A stretch of DNA of 64,000 bases, taken from positions 2,679,501 through 2,743,500 of the forward strand of contig NZ_UGOX01000001.1 in NCBI RefSeq assembly GCF_900461555.1, written 5' to 3'. The stretch's first letter is position 1. Every line of letters begins with the position of its first letter. This DNA is from Legionella quinlivanii (GTDB taxonomy: Bacteria > Pseudomonadota > Gammaproteobacteria > Legionellales > Legionellaceae). Below are positions 2,870-14,914 of the stretch, piece by piece. Under the pieces are notes generated by a model. The model saw only the letters and a program-made list of their open reading frames with translations. It did no database searches and was not told the origin of the DNA. The position numbers were made by a program, and so were the translations under genes.

Positions 2870-4531
2870 ATGAGTGAGTCTCGATTGGTTTATATTTTAA
2901 AACGGCTTCGATATTTTATTTCCCCGCCTACCGATATCTACGCACCAAAAACTCCCATGATTATTGAAAAAGACGTGAAAATACGTCTGCGAGACGGGAT
3001 TTTGCTCAGTGTCAATGTGTATCGGCCTGATGACAGTTTAAAGCATCCGGTAGTGATTTGTTTTCACCCCTATGACAAAGACCAGTTACCCAAAAAATCA
3101 TTATTTGGGCGTTATAAGCCTTTAAAGGCCTATCGATTCATACGTCAGCTAAGCCCTTCGCATTTCTCCTCTTTAACTGGTTGGGAGGCCCCTGATCCCG
3201 ATTTCTGGGTCAGAAATGGGTATGCGGTCATTAACGGAGATATGCGAGGTGCCGGAAAATCTGAGGGAAAACTTGATTTGCTAAGCGATACCGAAGCGCA
3301 GGATTATTATGAGCTTATCGAATGGGCCGCAGAGCAACCCTGGTCCAATCAAAAAATAGGCTTAAACGGCGTTTCCTATCTGGCATTGAGTCAGTATCGG
3401 GTTGCAGCCTTACACCCTCCTCACTTGGCCGCGATTTGCCCCTGGGAAGGATTCAGTGATGTCTATAAAGACCTGGCACGCCCTGGCGGAATTCGTGAAG
3501 ATGGCTTTTATGCGTTCTGGACGCACATGATAAACCCTGAACTACGCACCCAGCAAATGCAACGTATTACAAGAGATAGCTGGTGGCAAGCCAGGGTACC
3601 TGATCTAAAGGCGATTGAAGTGCCTGCGCTCATCTGCGGAAGCTTTTCAGACCAATGTCTGCATACTAATGGCTCGTTTCGTGTGTATGAACAGATTCAG
3701 TCAAAACATAAATGGCTGTATACACACCGAGGGGGTAAATGGTCCAGTTATTACAGTGAGGAAGCACTTAAAACGCAACTGGATTTTTTTGACTTTTTTC
3801 TTAAAGACAAGTCAAACAACTGGCTATCAACCCCAGGTGTTCGACTGGAAGTCCGTGAAAGCCGTGATCAGATTCATAGTACCAGCTACCACAATACCTG
3901 GCCTTTGCCTGACACTCAATGGCTTACTTTGTATTTGCATCCAGAAGCCCAGACCTTAAGTGAAAAAAATCACTCGGATAAAAAGAATCATCGGGATTTC
4001 TCTCTACCTGAGAATAACTTGCAACTCACTTTTACCTGCCCTTTTGATTTGCAGATTGTTGGCCCGATGAAACTTAAGCTGTGGCTAGAGCTGGCCGATA
4101 CTCAGGATATGAACCTTTTTGCAGGAATCCGCAAGTTTCATCAGGATGAAGAAGTTTACTTTGAAGGAAGTTATGGATTTGGCTTTGATATTGTGAGTAA
4201 AGGCTGGCAAAAAATATCCTTGCGTAAAATTGACGAAGCAGAAAGTGTTTTCTGGAAACCGGAGCATCGCTTTGAGGAGCAACAGTTTCTAAAATCAGGA
4301 GAGATTGCCTTGGTAGAACTATCACTGCTTCCCTCTGCCACTTTCTTTAAACAGGGTGATCAATTGCGGCTGGAACTGCGAGGAAAGTGGTTTTTCTCCC
4401 GGAACATTTTCTTATCGCAACTGAGCAAATATGAACCGAGTCAAACAGGCTTATGCCGCATTTATGGCGGAGGAGACTATGACAGCCATTTACTGGTTCC
4501 CATGCTTAAACCGTTTAATTCCAATTCATAG
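2870..4531 (+). CDS. CocE/NonD-family hydrolase (Xaa-Pro dipeptidyl-peptidase S15 fold)
   Basis: Serine hydrolase of the CocE/NonD group, enzymes that cleave acyl esters or N-acylated peptides. The N-terminal part has the family beta-strands (VKIRLRDGILLSVNVYRPDD) and the oxyanion-region motif NGDMRGAGKSEG. The nucleophile is in NGVSYLALS at Ser169. CGSFSDQCLHTNGSF and the following YTHRGGKW should carry the acid and the His. After about residue 320 comes the C-terminal jelly-roll domain typical of the family (PFDLQIVGPMKLKLWLEL). Length 553 aa fits. The downstream membrane protein begins 12 nt after the stop, so they form an operon. The substrate is not predictable. Confidence 0.85.
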   Translation: MSESRLVYILKRLRYFISPPTDIYAPKTPMIIEKDVKIRLRDGILLSVNVYRPDDSLKHPVVICFHPYDKDQLPKKSLFGRYKPLKAYRFIRQLSPSHFSSLTGWEAPDPDFWVRNGYAVINGDMRGAGKSEGKLDLLSDTEAQDYYELIEWAAEQPWSNQKIGLNGVSYLALSQYRVAALHPPHLAAICPWEGFSDVYKDLARPGGIREDGFYAFWTHMINPELRTQQMQRITRDSWWQARVPDLKAIEVPALICGSFSDQCLHTNGSFRVYEQIQSKHKWLYTHRGGKWSSYYSEEALKTQLDFFDFFLKDKSNNWLSTPGVRLEVRESRDQIHSTSYHNTWPLPDTQWLTLYLHPEAQTLSEKNHSDKKNHRDFSLPENNLQLTFTCPFDLQIVGPMKLKLWLELADTQDMNLFAGIRKFHQDEEVYFEGSYGFGFDIVSKGWQKISLRKIDEAESVFWKPEHRFEEQQFLKSGEIALVELSLLPSATFFKQGDQLRLELRGKWFFSRNIFLSQLSKYEPSQTGLCRIYGGGDYDSHLLVPMLKPFNSNS

Positions 4532-5681: not shown

Positions 5682-7592
5682 ATGTCTAAATTTATTGCCA
5701 TTTTTGCTCAATGCCTAAGTCCTACCGCTTCAGGTGACTACATGCTGGCGATACAAATTGCTAAAAGCCTGCATCAAACCCTGGTAAGTAATAACCCGGA
5801 AAACATCCAGCTGGTTTTGACCACAACTCGCGAAAGCATGCATCACTACCAAGCGCTTTGCGGTTCTCACTTAACTGAGTTGGGTATATCCGTTATTGCT
5901 CTCGAAGACTTGACTGATGAGCAAAACTCAATGCTTGCATTTATTGATGCAAACCGTTGTAAACCGGCAGATGGTAATCTGATGCTCGCAGCATTCTCTC
6001 CTGAGACCAAGTACATTTTTGCAGGAGCACCCAATGCACCCGATTTCTCCGAAGACTGGATGACGCAAGAGATAGATTTTCAGAATTATTTAGACCAGCC
6101 TGAATTGTTTTTCTATCTTCCACCTTCGCAAAAAATCTTCAGCTCGACAGGCCTTGGTCCGGACCGACTAGGTATCACCGCAATAACCCCGCTTAATCAG
6201 TTACCTCTTTTAAATGAGGAACAAGCGGCTTTAATTCCCAACAGGGCTTATAGTTTTGCCTACGTAAATAATCATAATTTTAACGCAAGCTGGAAAGCAA
6301 TAACGAATTACACCGAAATCACAGGCCAGCATCAGTTAATGCTGCTCGGTGATTTTTCAACGCAGGAGATTGATTTTCTGCGAGGGAAAATGAACGAAAT
6401 TTTATTGGCCCAGGGTAATATTGAACCGGCCGTAATCCATCATCATGCAATAGTGGAAAATAAACTGATGAGACAATTGATGTCTCACTCTTCCGGCGAT
6501 TTGATCGTTACAACGGGCACTCAAAGCACTCTGGAAGCATTCGTAGATCAAAAGTTGCCATTTTATCAATACACAGAGCACAATGCTGATTTTGTTGACT
6601 CTTATCTTGAAACACTTAGATCGCTTCTACTATTAAGGATGAGCGATTCGCCACAAACAAGGAAAATAGTGATTCTGTTTGCTGAGCTATTATTTGCAGC
6701 AAAACCTCTTGAAAATGCAGACAGCGAATACCTCAAATCATGTTTAGGCAAGAACTTGCTCTGTCAAATTATGAAAACAGCGAATGCTGAAATTGTAGCA
6801 ACAGCCCAGGGACGACTAGGTCCGCGATTACTTGGTTTTATCAATCAGAACAATCCGTCTGCGCTTCAAGAGCTGGAAGAAAAGTACCTTCGAGTTTGTG
6901 TTACCCTGCTGAAACGGGGAGAATCAGAGTATCCCGATCTGGACGAAGCCTTACGCCGCGCCGCTTCAAAAGGGATGGTTTTTGAATTAAAAGTATTGCT
7001 CCAGAGGATAAAAACTCACAATGAGGAATTGGATGAACCCGATGAACGCTTTGGGCGCTCGGCTCTGCTCTGGGCTGTAATTAAAAAGCAAGCCACCTGT
7101 ATGCGTCTTTTATTGAAAGCAGGCTCTGATGTGAATTTTCAGGATGATATGGGAGAAACAGCTGCTCATTATGCTGTCCGGCTTAAGCGAAAAGATTTAC
7201 TGGAAATCTGTATTCGTGAAGGCGCCGATCTTTCTGTCAGAGACAAGAAACACATGACAGTATTACATCATGCCTCGCGCCTGGGTCTGGATGATATCGT
7301 TGCGTTTCTGATTACCTCAGGAGCATCAGTGGATGTTATGAATAAACAGAGAAATACTCCACTCCATCTCGCTTTGCAGGGGAGAAATAAAACAGAAGTT
7401 ATCAGACATTTAGTGGATGCGGGAGCTAATCCCAGAATTCGTAATCATTCGGGCAGAAAAGCCTGTGATAATCCTGTATTCATACAATTCATGAAAACTC
7501 AGAACTCTAAAGAGAAAAACAAGGAGGAAGCAGCTCACGTAGCGCTGAATGAATCCTTCCCCATTTCCTGCACTCATGCGATGTCCTGCTAG
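5682..7592 (+). CDS. Ankyrin-repeat protein with glycosyltransferase-like N-terminal half; effector candidate
   Basis: A 636-aa protein with two parts. The N-terminal ~390 residues begin with an alternating strand/helix pattern (FIAIFAQCLSPTASGDYMLA) and contain GDLIVTTGTQSTLEAFVDQ. This resembles the donor-binding loop of GT-B glycosyltransferases, but no definite family is recognised. Residues about 420-600 hold five ankyrin repeats with clear consensus pieces such as NTPLHLALQGR and LLLKAGSDVNFQDD. The C-terminus has a Glu/Lys-rich block (KEKNKEEAAH) followed by a hydrophobic Ser/Cys-containing tail, compatible with a Dot/Icm secretion signal. No signal peptide. Ankyrin proteins of this architecture are typical translocated effectors in Legionella; secretion is inference. 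Confidence 0.75.
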   Translation: MSKFIAIFAQCLSPTASGDYMLAIQIAKSLHQTLVSNNPENIQLVLTTTRESMHHYQALCGSHLTELGISVIALEDLTDEQNSMLAFIDANRCKPADGNLMLAAFSPETKYIFAGAPNAPDFSEDWMTQEIDFQNYLDQPELFFYLPPSQKIFSSTGLGPDRLGITAITPLNQLPLLNEEQAALIPNRAYSFAYVNNHNFNASWKAITNYTEITGQHQLMLLGDFSTQEIDFLRGKMNEILLAQGNIEPAVIHHHAIVENKLMRQLMSHSSGDLIVTTGTQSTLEAFVDQKLPFYQYTEHNADFVDSYLETLRSLLLLRMSDSPQTRKIVILFAELLFAAKPLENADSEYLKSCLGKNLLCQIMKTANAEIVATAQGRLGPRLLGFINQNNPSALQELEEKYLRVCVTLLKRGESEYPDLDEALRRAASKGMVFELKVLLQRIKTHNEELDEPDERFGRSALLWAVIKKQATCMRLLLKAGSDVNFQDDMGETAAHYAVRLKRKDLLEICIREGADLSVRDKKHMTVLHHASRLGLDDIVAFLITSGASVDVMNKQRNTPLHLALQGRNKTEVIRHLVDAGANPRIRNHSGRKACDNPVFIQFMKTQNSKEKNKEEAAHVALNESFPISCTHAMSC

Positions 7593-11996: not shown

Positions 11997-12018
11997 TTAG
12001 TTACCAAATGGTAACTAA
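11997..12018. promoter_or_regulatory. 22-bp perfect palindrome, candidate HxlR-type operator
   Basis: Arms TTAGTTACCA (11997-12006) and TGGTAACTAA (12009-12018) flank a 2-nt centre. It abuts the -35 box of the promoter upstream of the small peptide gene, the expected place for a repressor site. GTTAC/GTAAC half-sites fit the MarR/HxlR winged-helix group, and an HxlR gene lies at the other end of this locus. Binding is inference. Confidence 0.7.
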
Positions 12019-12045
12019 TTGACTGATTAATAGGACTTTTATAAT
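12019..12045 (+). promoter_or_regulatory. Sigma70-like promoter of the small peptide gene
   Basis: -35 TTGACT at 12019-12024 and perfect -10 TATAAT at 12040-12045, separated by 15 nt, slightly short of optimum. The start codon of the peptide gene is 34 nt beyond the -10. The palindrome at 11997-12018 ends at the base before the -35. Confidence 0.65.
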
Positions 12046-12078
12046 CTCAATGACGATTTCAACAAACCGGAGAGTTCC

Positions 12079-12168
12079 ATGAAGGAAGCTATTATCAACA
12101 AAATTGTCCAGGCGAAACTTGCAAATATTAGTAAAGGATGGTGTGGTCCTGGCACCTGTGCTGGCTAG
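12079..12168 (+). CDS. 29-aa Cys-containing peptide, candidate RiPP precursor
   Basis: Short ORF (29 codons, TAG stop) with ribosome binding site CGGAGAG 4-5 nt before ATG 12079. The first ~19 residues (MKEAIINKIVQAKLANISK) form a possible amphipathic leader helix. The tail GWCGPGTCAG has two Cys four residues apart and is rich in Gly, like the core of a ribosomally made, modified peptide. It is followed by a 10-bp hairpin and then a gene for a putative metal-binding small protein. No homologue or known RiPP class is recognised. Alternatives are a regulatory upstream ORF or a metal/redox-binding micropeptide. Confidence 0.6.
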   Translation: MKEAIINKIVQAKLANISKGWCGPGTCAG

Positions 12169-12175
12169 GAATAGC

Positions 12176-12205
12176 GCATGCACCACGTTAAAAAATGGTG
12201 CATGC
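12176..12205 (+). promoter_or_regulatory. Perfect 10-bp hairpin between peptide gene and downstream gene
   Basis: Arms GCATGCACCA (12176-12185) and TGGTGCATGC (12196-12205), 10-nt A-rich loop. It starts 8 nt after the peptide stop and ends about 10 nt before the next ribosome binding site, with no T-run. This placement is typical of processing or attenuating hairpins that keep a precursor peptide in excess of the next gene product. The ATG at 12178 inside the stem is therefore unlikely to be a start codon. Confidence 0.65.
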
Positions 12206-12225
12206 AAAAATTAAGGAAGAGTATT

Positions 12226-12660
12226 ATGTGTGTGCCAAAACTGGATGTACTGATTAATTATAAAAATAATAAACTTATCTCTCGATACGCCAGAGACTAT
12301 CCTGAAGCAAGTTTACAAGCAGAAGATGCCTTGAAAGAATTGATGAAATATATCTGGTTATGCCAGAAACACAAAGCAGAAAAGCAGAAAAATCCAAACA
12401 ATGATTTATTAAATTTTTCCTGTGTCATTCATTCGGAAATGTCGGAAATTGATAATATGTGGCACACTTTCCTTTTGTTCACCAAAGATTATCAGCATTT
12501 CTGCAATGAATACCTAAACGGCGATTTCTTTCACCATGAACCAATCATTGCAGAAGACCATTTGCCCAGCGACAATTATGAGCGCGAGCTTTCAGATTAT
12601 TTATCTTATATCTATGATAATTTGGGTGAAGAGACATTGCTTAAATGGTTTAAACAATAG
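12226..12660 (+). CDS. Glycine-rich-domain-like (GRDP/DUF1399-type) small protein
   Basis: A 144-aa protein. The segment EIDNMWHTFLLFTKDYQHFC followed by FFHHEP matches the hallmark WH.h.fT.dY..FC......HH pattern of the core of plant glycine-rich-domain proteins and their bacterial relatives. Asp76, His80, Cys93, His103 and His104 could form a metal site. ATG 12226 has AAGGAAGAG 5 nt upstream and is preferred over ATG 12178, which sits inside a hairpin. The gene directly follows the 29-aa peptide gene and abuts the convergent HxlR gene with no gap. It may process, bind or transport the peptide; function is unknown. Confidence 0.75.
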   Translation: MCVPKLDVLINYKNNKLISRYARDYPEASLQAEDALKELMKYIWLCQKHKAEKQKNPNNDLLNFSCVIHSEMSEIDNMWHTFLLFTKDYQHFCNEYLNGDFFHHEPIIAEDHLPSDNYERELSDYLSYIYDNLGEETLLKWFKQ

Positions 12661-13035
12661 CTAGGGCTTTCTTGTTTCATCAAACTGACTGCTGGAAAGC
12701 ATTATTGCCTCCATATTAGACTCAGTCCATTCCCTTAAAGTTCCAAGAATTTTACCTAATTCATTACCCAGGGAGGTTAATGAATACTCCACTTTTAAAG
12801 GTAAAACAGGAAAGGATCGTCTGACTACAAAGCCAAGGCGCTCCAACTTAATTAATGTCTGAGTGAGCATTTTTGGGGAAATCCCCTCAAGTTTCCGTTT
12901 CAGTTCCCCGAACCGACAAGTTCCATCCAGTAGACAATTAATTACCAAAATTGACCATTTGTCACTGATTTTCTCAAAGACATTTCTTGATGGGCATTGT
13001 TCACTATAGATTGAGAACTTTTGCTGCAGAGACAT
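12661..13035 (-). CDS. HxlR-family transcriptional regulator
   Basis: A 124-aa winged-helix regulator. The N-terminus has the family Cys-Pro (SEQCPSRNVFEKISDKWSIL; Cys14 is the usual redox/electrophile-sensing Cys). The DNA-binding part includes FGELKRKLEGISPKMLTQTL and the wing follows. HxlR proteins are mostly repressors or activators that respond to quinones, aldehydes or hypochlorite. The gene converges on the GRDP-like gene, with stop codons abutting. It is likely to control the peptide locus through the palindrome at 11997-12018; a second palindromic sequence (AACTG/CAGTT) is at 13057-13068 in its own leader. Confidence 0.88.
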   Translation of the reverse strand: MSLQQKFSIYSEQCPSRNVFEKISDKWSILVINCLLDGTCRFGELKRKLEGISPKMLTQTLIKLERLGFVVRRSFPVLPLKVEYSLTSLGNELGKILGTLREWTESNMEAIMLSSSQFDETRKP

Positions 13036-13079: not shown

Positions 13080-13228
13080 CTAATGGCGCTGCCTTAACAT
13101 ATTTATCTGCGTCCCTCGGCTTGTCCGGGTGAGCCAGAGATCCAATCCTGGCATGAGATTCCTGGATCCCTCGGACAAGCCGAGGGACGTAGGGAGTATG
13201 GGTTTAAGCCTTAGGGCAGCGCCATTAG
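13080..13228. repeat. Dispersed palindromic element, copy 2, complete with terminal inverted repeats
   Basis: 149 bp with perfect 14-bp ends CTAATGGCGCTGCC (13080-13093) and GGCAGCGCCATTAG (13215-13228). Inner arms are of the CCCTCGG...CCGAGGG type. The central 32 bp (13134-13165) is the exact reverse complement of the centre of the copy at 56773-56894. No clear target-site duplication is visible. Confidence 0.85.
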
Positions 13229-13255: not shown

Positions 13256-14914
13256 TTACTTCTGAGGAACTTCCATTGGCGGTGCCGAAGGTGCGACCCC
13301 TCCATATAGATTAGGATACAAAGCAGAAGAGGGATTATAAGCATAAAGCGTTGGCTCATTCGAAGCTGCCAAACCCGATTGAGGGGCTTGTTGCTGACCA
13401 CCGAAGAAACCAGCTCCACCCGCGTGCTGATGCTGATATTGATTGGTATATTCAGCGTATTGCTGCGACGGATAGCCATAGTAGCTGCCGGGATGACTGT
13501 GCATTCGAGGATACTCCAGAGTATAAATGACCCCATCCAGCTCAAACACCCGGTCTACTCCATTGCGTAAACGGCTTATTTTTTCGAGGAAAATATCCTG
13601 ATCACGCAAATAATTGTCATGAGTCGGTTTGGCGTAATGGAGAGTGTCATCACGAAACGCTGCGATACGCTTCTCAATTTGTGTAAACACATGCTTTAAA
13701 GCATTTTCAACTGAATCAGGGTTTAATCCTTTCCTAACTAAATCCAGTTTTTCTTCATCAGTCAGACCATACAGATGCATGAGATTTCTGATTTTATCGT
13801 CGCCTATTTTCACATAAATCAAGCGTCCCTCGCGTAAATCTCGAATAGTATTCAACAGCGCGTCACTTTCACGACCTGCTTCAGTAAACCATCGGGCCCA
13901 GATTGAAGGAATTTTTTTATGGTTTGATCCGGAATGTTTCTTATCCAGGGCTGCCATTTCATGCCGTACTGCGATAATAGCCTGAGTCACTTCAAAAGGG
14001 TCGATACCCTTTAAAAGCAATTTACCAGTCTCTTCTTCGGTTAATTCAGCACGAATCCGAAATGGATCAGCGCGGTCAGCGGCATGCGGATTGTTTTTAT
14101 TGATATAATATTCCTGAATCGCGTTGCTTATAAATGCAACCCCAGCAGCCCCCAGAATAGTCATGACAACGATTCCGGTGATTGCTATCCCAATAGGATT
14201 GCTGATTCCTGCGGTAAACGCCAGCCACATTAGAGGAGTAGATAACAAAAAAGTACCTACAACAGCACCAACCGCCGCACCAGCGAGCATGCTGGCCAAA
14301 GAAATAGTCGCTTGCAGCCATCCTTCATTAAAAAGCAGACGCTCAACATTACTGCATATTTTTTGCAACAAATAATATAAAGCTATAAAAGTCAATACTG
14401 CAGCAATGACTGCCAATAATATCAAAAGAAGCATTGCCCAGGCTTCACCATTATTTTCATGGTCGTGATTATGGCCACAGCAACCATCTACACCCCCGTG
14501 ATGATTGTGATGATTTAACATGGCGTCCCACATTAACCAGGTAAACAGAAAATCATTATGGCGTGCATAATAACAATCGTAGGGATGGTGGCGATCATAG
14601 ACCTTGATTTGCAGAAATACCGGGTAGGCTGCATAGTTAAAATAATGCCTGCGATAGTCATCGTCTAACTTGGCAAATTGAGGGAGAGAATTACAAAATG
14701 AATATAGAACGCGATAAACTTTATTTTTTTCCTCTTCAGGAAGGGTATACCAGGGGCTGTTTGGTGCATTCACAGCTTGATGAACACGCGCGGCCAAGGT
14801 AGAGAAAATTTCCTGCTGGGTCTTTCGCGGATAACTGTGATTTTTAAGTTGCTCGTAATCTCCTGATAAATTCAAATACAACTTCGCCATATCATTATTG
14901 GTAAATACCGCCAT
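13256..14914 (-). CDS. Large orphan membrane protein, effector candidate
   Basis: A 552-aa protein of no recognised family. A soluble N-terminal part is followed by a His/Cys cluster (residues 135-152, NHHNHHGGVDGCCGHNHDH). Then come hydrophobic segments at about 158-183 and two or three more between about 197 and 265. A helical charged domain follows with two related motifs, LTEEETGKLLLKGIDPFEV and LTDEEKLDLVRKGLNPDSV. The C-terminal ~90 residues are rich in Tyr, Gln, Gly and Pro and end with a PSAP tetrapeptide (542-545). Orphan proteins of this build are common among translocated proteins in Legionella, but secretion is speculative. Monocistronic. Confidence 0.6.
   Translation of the reverse strand: MAVFTNNDMAKLYLNLSGDYEQLKNHSYPRKTQQEIFSTLAARVHQAVNAPNSPWYTLPEEEKNKVYRVLYSFCNSLPQFAKLDDDYRRHYFNYAAYPVFLQIKVYDRHHPYDCYYARHNDFLFTWLMWDAMLNHHNHHGGVDGCCGHNHDHENNGEAWAMLLLILLAVIAAVLTFIALYYLLQKICSNVERLLFNEGWLQATISLASMLAGAAVGAVVGTFLLSTPLMWLAFTAGISNPIGIAITGIVVMTILGAAGVAFISNAIQEYYINKNNPHAADRADPFRIRAELTEEETGKLLLKGIDPFEVTQAIIAVRHEMAALDKKHSGSNHKKIPSIWARWFTEAGRESDALLNTIRDLREGRLIYVKIGDDKIRNLMHLYGLTDEEKLDLVRKGLNPDSVENALKHVFTQIEKRIAAFRDDTLHYAKPTHDNYLRDQDIFLEKISRLRNGVDRVFELDGVIYTLEYPRMHSHPGSYYGYPSQQYAEYTNQYQHQHAGGAGFFGGQQQAPQSGLAASNEPTLYAYNPSSALYPNLYGGVAPSAPPMEVPQK

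Follow-up and report, generated by a model that had tools for sequence, protein, structure and literature searches.

The locus described here lies in a window of 64,000 nucleotides (the whole stretch of DNA that was analysed) from Legionella quinlivanii, whose 3.61-Mb genome belongs to the Legionellaceae and is labelled G000 in the analysis. It is built around two genes read in the same direction: one of 29 codons, encoding a peptide with a cysteine-containing tail, and a second one, separated from it by a hairpin, encoding a protein of 144 residues referred to below as the partner. The gene for an HxlR (DUF24) regulator is convergent with the partner gene, and an operator-like inverted repeat and a sigma70-like promoter precede the peptide gene (Table 1).

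These elements had been pointed out in a first-pass annotation made from the sequence alone, and most of them hold. The 144-residue protein carries the WH, C and HH pattern ascribed to it, the convergent gene encodes an HxlR protein with Cys14 (PF01638, 88.7 bits against a Pfam cut-off of 20.8), and both promoter hexamers are in place. The hairpin has a folding z of -3.7 and is not followed by a run of T; intergenic hairpins with z of -2 or lower, of differing sequence, were obtained in 20 of the 23 loci folded. The palindrome, described as perfect over 22 bp, is an inverted repeat of lesser symmetry: its 10-bp arms flank a 2-bp AA centre, which gives 20 of 22 symmetric positions. Its core, GTTACCNNNNGGTAAC, occurs at one place only in the genome.

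Table 1. Features of the peptide locus, in window coordinates
Feature	Position	Strand	Remarks
Operator-like inverted repeat, TTAGTTACCA-AA-TGGTAACTAA	11997..12018	none	predicted HxlR site
Sigma70-like promoter	12019..12045	+	-35 TTGACT 12019-12024, -10 TATAAT 12040-12045; short spacer of 15 bp
Shine-Dalgarno-like GGAGAG of the peptide gene	12069..12074	+	from sequence
29-codon precursor-like peptide gene, product MKEAIINKIVQAKLANISKGWCGPGTCAG	12079..12168	+	open reading frame and selection evidence
Peptide leader, codons 1-19	12079-12135	+	leader/core border chosen by the analyst
Peptide core GWCGPGTCAG, codons 20-29	12136-12165	+	stop codon 12166-12168
Hairpin between peptide and partner genes, 10-bp arms 12176-12185 and 12196-12205	12176..12205	+	folding
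Partner protein, 144 residues, WH / C / HH pattern (GRDP fold)	12226..12660	+	profile, model, fold match
HxlR (DUF24) regulator, convergent with the partner gene, Cys14 in a CPS motif	12661..13035	-	PF01638
552-residue protein	13256-14914		no Pfam match over the cut-off, no NCBIfam match

The peptide gene and its partner in the Legionellaceae

A gene of only 29 codons readily escapes notice, but its reality is supported by the way it varies. The ratio of nonsynonymous to synonymous differences (pN/pS), calculated over 12 independent peptide pairs, is 0.26 in frame versus 1.24 and 1.42 in the other two frames, with values of 0.29 for the leader and 0.23 for the core. By this measure, purifying selection acts on the peptide at the protein level; the central part of the partner protein gives 0.19. 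Neither loss of the frame among relatives nor a lack of protein-level selection, the two outcomes that the first-pass annotation had named as speaking against its proposal, was found. Matches to the peptide with E of at most 2.7e-5 number 25, in 24 of 143 Legionellaceae genomes. Two weaker peptide-like matches (G000:C1:43536 and G006:C16:217838) were set aside, as they have no start codon and the partner searches show no partner nearby.

The association of the peptide with its partner, which the same annotation had proposed to check across relatives, is found throughout the family, where a short open reading frame with a cysteine tail lies upstream of 97 of the 106 partner genes inspected. The first batch comprised 66 partner genes, left from 70 profile matches after removal of two duplicate starts (29 and 55), one broken gene (53, L103) and one fragment of 54 residues (69, L029). 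By reading, 58 of them have such an upstream frame, mostly less than 200 bp away; L050, L096 and L104 are the less certain cases, and the gap between peptide and partner gene amounts to 226-283 bp in L050, L081 and L082. One locus of this family, L089, has two precursors in front of the partner. The second batch consisted of 40 more distant partner genes, here termed core-type, which are part of the remaining profile matches. An upstream peptide precedes 39 of these (37 from a pattern count, plus L274 and L276 by reading), and core-type peptides end near or at the start of the downstream gene. Among 11 genomes of the genus, the peptide and the closely related partner occur together in seven, the peptide of G001 having another core; the core-type partner is present in all 11, and in four it is the sole partner type. 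No other gene is fixed beside the pair across all Legionella subtypes within about 3 kb on each side, nor is an exporter or a tailoring gene a constant neighbour in the Legionella loci examined. The peptide gene and the partner gene almost certainly form one functional unit.

The genome of the window also carries a core-type partner gene (L027, G000:C1:1188121-1188498) with an upstream peptide of its own, (M)MTKQEKICRIVTAITNNKDWRKSCCRFR; genes of the AhpC and AhpD families lie divergently upstream of it.

The window-type peptide is short, cationic and amphipathic. Across the family, the leaders are alike and follow the form MKxxIIxKIVxxKL, or MxKEEMICRIVRxIT in the core-type version, and the tails vary between GWCGPGTCxG, GWCRPCTSIG, CKCCRGxG, CKCCRYS, NLCCW, CPGKCGA, ACGICGMCN and CCG/CCR. 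The Cys-x4-Cys tail, whose conservation had been proposed for checking, is kept within the subtype of the window, but beyond it WCGPGTC is one of several cores. Within the Legionellaceae, the combination of a similar leader, a variable core and an adjoining partner gene is that of a ribosomally synthesized and post-translationally modified peptide (RiPP). The product of the 29-codon gene is probably a small cysteine-based peptide of a type not previously described; the matches listed from a search of the open-access literature, a scope that leaves subscription papers and preprints largely outside, contain no description of such a peptide paired with a partner of the GRDP fold.

In a 65-row alignment of partner proteins, residues D76, W79, H80, F82, L84, Y89, F92, H103 and H104 are invariant, and the histidines among them could perhaps build a metal site. 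The AlphaFold2 model of the partner is all-helical (predicted local distance difference test 90.8, predicted template-modelling score 0.88). Its best fold match in the viral library BFVD is a GRDP-like protein (probability 1.00, template-modelling scores 0.62/0.64, E 0.062), which assigns it to the fold of GRDP-like family PF07173 and agrees with the label it had been given at first sight. The family has the WH...HH motif in common with the window protein, and the relatives L136 (26.5 bits) and L140 (25.4 bits) pass its gathering cut-off of 22.7. The window protein itself and 17 homologues (set A1) stay below Pfam recognition, with a PF07173 match in 0 of 18, and sequence searches of Pfam, NCBIfam and the PDB with the window protein or close homologues returned no relative. 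The closest named relative of the partner in the scan is a protein of L. quinlivanii with 90% identity, the window's own record possibly being excluded. We know of no link between the plant GRDP members and short peptides.

The operator, HxlR and neighbouring redox genes

A 24-base pattern joining the operator to the -35 hexamer was found at 25 sites in 24 of 143 Legionellaceae genomes, whereas the reversed control pattern gave none. Each of the 25 has one of the 25 strong peptide matches 55-63 bp downstream of it on the same strand, so that every operator site precedes a window-type peptide or a close variant, and the operator and promoter block can be aligned in 25 loci, including two in which the peptide is an orphan. 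Counted by partner loci, the operator is present in 24 of 66, and in 21 of these 24 the retrieved sequence includes an HxlR gene; the exceptions are L114, L183 and L179, of which the last has sequence for only 457 bp downstream. In the other 42 loci, some of which have short flanks, there is neither an operator nor an HxlR gene. The redox regulator that had been noted next to the peptide therefore does accompany it, together with the operator, but only in this subtype. The operator is probably the binding site of HxlR.

The N-terminal cysteine (Cys14) is kept in all 21 linked HxlR proteins aligned, as in the redox-sensing members of the HxlR/DUF24 family. In Bacillus, the regulators HypR, YodB and CatR sense hypochlorous acid, quinones and diamide through an N-terminal cysteine, and Cys14 of HypR has been found modified by allicin (PMC6943732). 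The window regulator shares with them the HxlR domain and the N-terminal cysteine; it differs in that its neighbour is a predicted peptide system and not an oxidoreductase. Other subtypes have other neighbours. In 10 of 12 loci of the CKCC subtype, the corresponding position is taken by a LysR gene (the family being confirmed on two proteins), and in the core-type, AhpC- and AhpD-family genes lie divergently upstream in 8 of 11 loci (confirmed on one protein each). The distribution of HxlR, LysR and AhpC/AhpD neighbours by subtype makes a thiol-stress theme likely for the Legionella units, and the unit of the window would probably be induced by thiol-reactive stress.

In 13 of the 24 operator loci (for instance L047 and L174-L176), a gene with a methyltransferase domain begins next to the operator and is read away from the peptide gene; in one of them its start lies at -522, and at the window locus it is absent.

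Relatives outside Legionella and microcin 1229

When a sample of 369 genomes from the whole class was searched with the profile of 65 partner proteins, 32 gave a match, and three of these are Legionellaceae. A named scan, which kept 80 of 127 relatives, extended the family to Bdellovibrionales, Bacteroidota, Nostocales, Pseudoalteromonas, Ca. Uabimicrobium, Sericytochromatia and others, and 67 of those 80 loci were inspected (L184-L250); the phylum labels of the metagenome bins (such as L187, L195 and L209) could be mistaken. Among isolates, a peptide is present in Pseudoalteromonas, Ca. Uabimicrobium and one Nostocales strain. Peptides of similar build near a partner gene include MNKKALIAQLLKNNVVNACICCHVPV in L244 and, in Pseudoalteromonas, MNKSKIINSLVNKNLERNKGARFCGCVICLVDRKPGVGPKNK, which is encoded 3' of the partner gene. 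Precursors can also be repeated: six in tandem, four of them identical, precede one WH...HH gene in L164 (G432:C1:1706700-1719100, positions 6488-7203), two occur in L209, and L195 encodes two more peptides that resemble precursors, MKSKQNLIATIVKKKSKKISLANCRSTCW and MKAKRALIAKLVKIKSKHSTAERCNWCRAE, about 1.2 kb upstream of its partner gene.

Outside Legionella, an upstream short open reading frame with at least two cysteines in its tail was found for 17 of 47 partner genes versus 11 of 221 other genes (P 4.8e-8), where the 47 are loci from records not named Legionella and are not all independent, L194 and L201 coming from genomes of the GTDB family to which Legionella belongs and L227-L234 being near relatives. 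A stricter count, which demanded the leader pattern as well as the cysteines, gave 8 of 47 partner genes and 8 of 221 control genes and is weak when taken alone; seven of the eight control cases are peptides on the other side of the partner (L199, L227, L228, L230, L231, L233 and L234). With a profile of 35 Legionellaceae leaders, 10 of 74 cysteine-tailed short frames near a partner reached at least 5 bits, versus 1 of 225 such frames elsewhere in the same loci (P 5e-6), and that single background frame is the L195 peptide 1.2 kb upstream of the partner.

In ten larger homologues (L126, L127, L129-L134, L149 and L150), the partner domain has a cysteine-rich, mostly glycine-rich C-terminal tail of its own. 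Members from Rhizobium and Agrobacterium also have the cysteine tail in cis, with an adjoining glycosyltransferase gene. On the Agrobacterium plasmid pAtCFBP6625a (L258, 3821-8166), genes for a glycosyltransferase and an ABC transporter come after those of two cysteine-tailed WH...HH proteins, and on pRgalIE4872c of Rhizobium gallicum (L257) a cysteine-tailed WH...HH gene and a glycosyltransferase gene are found among nif/fix genes. Some distant loci that have both peptide and partner adjoin genes of TonB-dependent uptake: a TonB-dependent receptor and TonB at L160 and L161, a receptor at L162 and TonB at L159; by eye, no receptor gene was seen at L163. The partner gene of Aureibacter adjoins a TonB-dependent receptor gene, with no evident short peptide there. 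An ABC-2 exporter stands beside L162 and L167, loci from two genomes of one GTDB genus; the permease model that it matched is presumably YadH-like, and the match was given little weight.

The best characterized relative is MctA, from the microcin 1229 system. A tblastn search of plasmids with the window protein matched 31 records, 25 of them from E. coli. In p0.1229_3 (NZ_CP028323.1), the match spans 3142-3564, covers 97% of the query at 27% identity (E 5e-9) and falls inside an annotated 'hypothetical protein' at 3094-3792. This gene is mctA, because the published mctA deletion spans 3084-3792 (PMC8853679). MctA scores 88.5 bits against the partner profile and ends in ...CGCSGKGCGAGCSCNSR; on these alignments, the window partner is homologous to its N-terminal domain. 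Microcin 1229 is a secreted activity that requires mctA, mctB (an ABC transporter) and mctC (a cupin), enters target cells by means of CirA and TonB, and is accompanied by immunity from the mctDE region; mct expression rises without Fur, and the chemical identity of the microcin is reported as not known (PMC8853679). The Legionella unit can be seen as a split form of the MctA type, since MctA holds the domain and the cysteine-rich tail in one chain and the window encodes them in two genes. Both systems show a connection with TonB, through uptake in the case of the microcin and through adjoining TonB-receptor genes in distant family members. The mct operon includes an ABC exporter, a cupin and immunity genes and has evidence of Fur control (PMC8853679), whereas the pair in the window has an HxlR gene and none of those adjacent to it.

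Proposed function and rival explanations

The reading that we favour, with a probability of about 0.6, is that the peptide is a precursor and the partner its leader-binding maturase or carrier, the two together yielding a cysteine-based peptide for metal or thiol handling. Electrophile or disulfide stress would hit Cys14 of HxlR, upon which the TTGACT/TATAAT promoter would fire, and the hairpin would keep the peptide mRNA in excess over that of the partner. The WH...HH protein would recognise the amphipathic leader (LI-x-x-IV-x-x-K) and serve as maturase or carrier of the cysteine core, perhaps by way of a metal site formed by its invariant histidines, and the product would be a short cysteine peptide handling metal or thiols. 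Whether the core is chemically modified in the process is a question that we would leave evenly balanced. As a tentative extension, which we hold to be somewhat less probable than its opposite, the GRDP-fold domain could be the maturase or carrier of an unrecognised class of ribosomal cysteine peptides in many phyla, occurring in split, arrayed or tail-fused form, with microcin 1229 as the member of known activity.

Several observations weigh against this interpretation. Nine of the 106 partner genes have no adjacent peptide; enough sequence to hold one is present at six of them (L092, L093, L100, L102, L105 and L106), L263 is a seventh case, and L056 and L099 are at contig ends. Conversely, L116 (G102) and L118 (G077) have a peptide and an operator but no adjacent partner gene, and no HxlR gene was seen beside the L118 peptide, which would fit either a partner acting in trans or a peptide with a role of its own. 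A Foldseek search of the PDB with the partner model gave 36 matches, none below an E of 1; since the fold has no counterpart among solved structures, relatives offer no guide to catalysis. An ABC exporter and a cupin, as in the mct operon, are absent beside the window pair. Outside Legionella, many of the 67 inspected loci are listed without a short frame of this kind, and leader scores are low in Nostocales (2.5 bits), Ca. Uabimicrobium (3.3 bits) and Pseudoalteromonas (1.4-5.0 bits, mostly 3.8 or lower). The best background frame that is not such a peptide scores 3.4 bits, and the distant peptides are not clearly above it; a common leader across phyla is thus suggested, not proven.

Some of these points would suit an unmodified micropeptide for thiols or metals, with CxxxxC, CKCC or CC tails, for which the WH...HH protein would be a chaperone, metal donor or scaffold. 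Cysteine is the common feature of the cores, the neighbours are redox genes (HxlR, AhpC/AhpD), no tailoring enzyme is fixed at the Legionella loci examined, and orphan peptides occur. Such a micropeptide nevertheless seems unlikely to us, given that the leader is kept distinct from the core, that precursors are repeated, and that the cupin-domain gene required in the mct operon points to maturation (PMC8853679). A pair of toxin and antitoxin, or of bacteriocin and immunity protein, in which the amphipathic peptide would be the toxin and the WH...HH protein its neutraliser, would fit a short cationic amphipathic peptide and the membership of MctA in an antibacterial system, but it is improbable, as immunity in the mct system comes from mctDE and activity depends on mctA (PMC8853679), and as peptide loci without an adjacent partner exist. 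Cysteine codons near the stop, an intergenic hairpin and core-type peptides ending near or at the downstream start are what would be expected from a regulatory leader peptide, that is, a cysteine-codon attenuator governing the downstream gene through the hairpin. The window hairpin, however, has no T run, selection at the amino-acid level extends over leader and core, and operator-bearing peptides occur without a downstream partner; six tandem copies, the position of the peptide 3' of the partner in Pseudoalteromonas and the fusion of the cysteine tail to the domain in MctA are equally hard to reconcile with attenuation. The orphan peptides, the tandem copies and the selection on the whole peptide led to its rejection as the main function, and we consider it very improbable.

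Equally small is the chance that the peptide is a precursor of the bufferin or methanobactin type, modified by an MNIO enzyme encoded elsewhere in the genome. The enzyme family (PF05114) is common in Legionellaceae, being found in 83 of 143 genomes, and TIGR04222 proteins have been proposed as MNIO substrates (PMC12452194). L149 combines the WH...HH domain, TIGR04222 and a cysteine tail, and thereby joins features of both systems, which have cysteine-rich tails in common. Yet G001, G003 and G005, all of 100% estimated completeness, carry the pair and have no PF05114 match, and MNIO was therefore rejected as a required modifier. The genome of the window has three PF05114 genes (G000:C1:604022, 743774 and 2954305), none of which comes within 200 kb of either partner gene, a Sec signal is not evident by eye in the peptide, and the five window open reading frames scanned (Pfam, NCBIfam) include neither a DUF2063-type partner nor a known RiPP-modifying enzyme. 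The methanobactin precursor MbnA is likewise a leader-core peptide, of roughly 30 residues and with two cysteines in its core. In the window genome no MbnB-type (MNIO) gene lies within 200 kb of the pair, and the fold of the partner is different.

Under the favoured reading of a precursor with its leader-binding maturase or carrier, a widespread domain of previously unassigned function receives a predicted role, and microcin 1229 a parentage that can be tested. If the partner is a maturase, its fold would be new to peptide modification and the peptides a new class; if the reading extends to many phyla, the fold of the plant and viral GRDP-like proteins would be one that serves bacteria in making cysteine-based metal or redox peptides. 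For the Legionella subtypes, the placement beside HxlR, LysR or AhpC/AhpD genes suggests a role in thiol stress. Many genomes hold short precursor genes of this kind that gene finders can miss.

The flanking genes scanned in the window encode, besides HxlR, a protein with an MltA domain and the unmatched 552-residue protein of Table 1. Adjoining the HxlR gene, an inverted-repeat element was seen by eye at 13084-13220, with outer arms TAATGGCGCTGCC...GGCAGCGCCATTA and inner CCTCGGCTTGTCC arms, and may be a mobile repeat.

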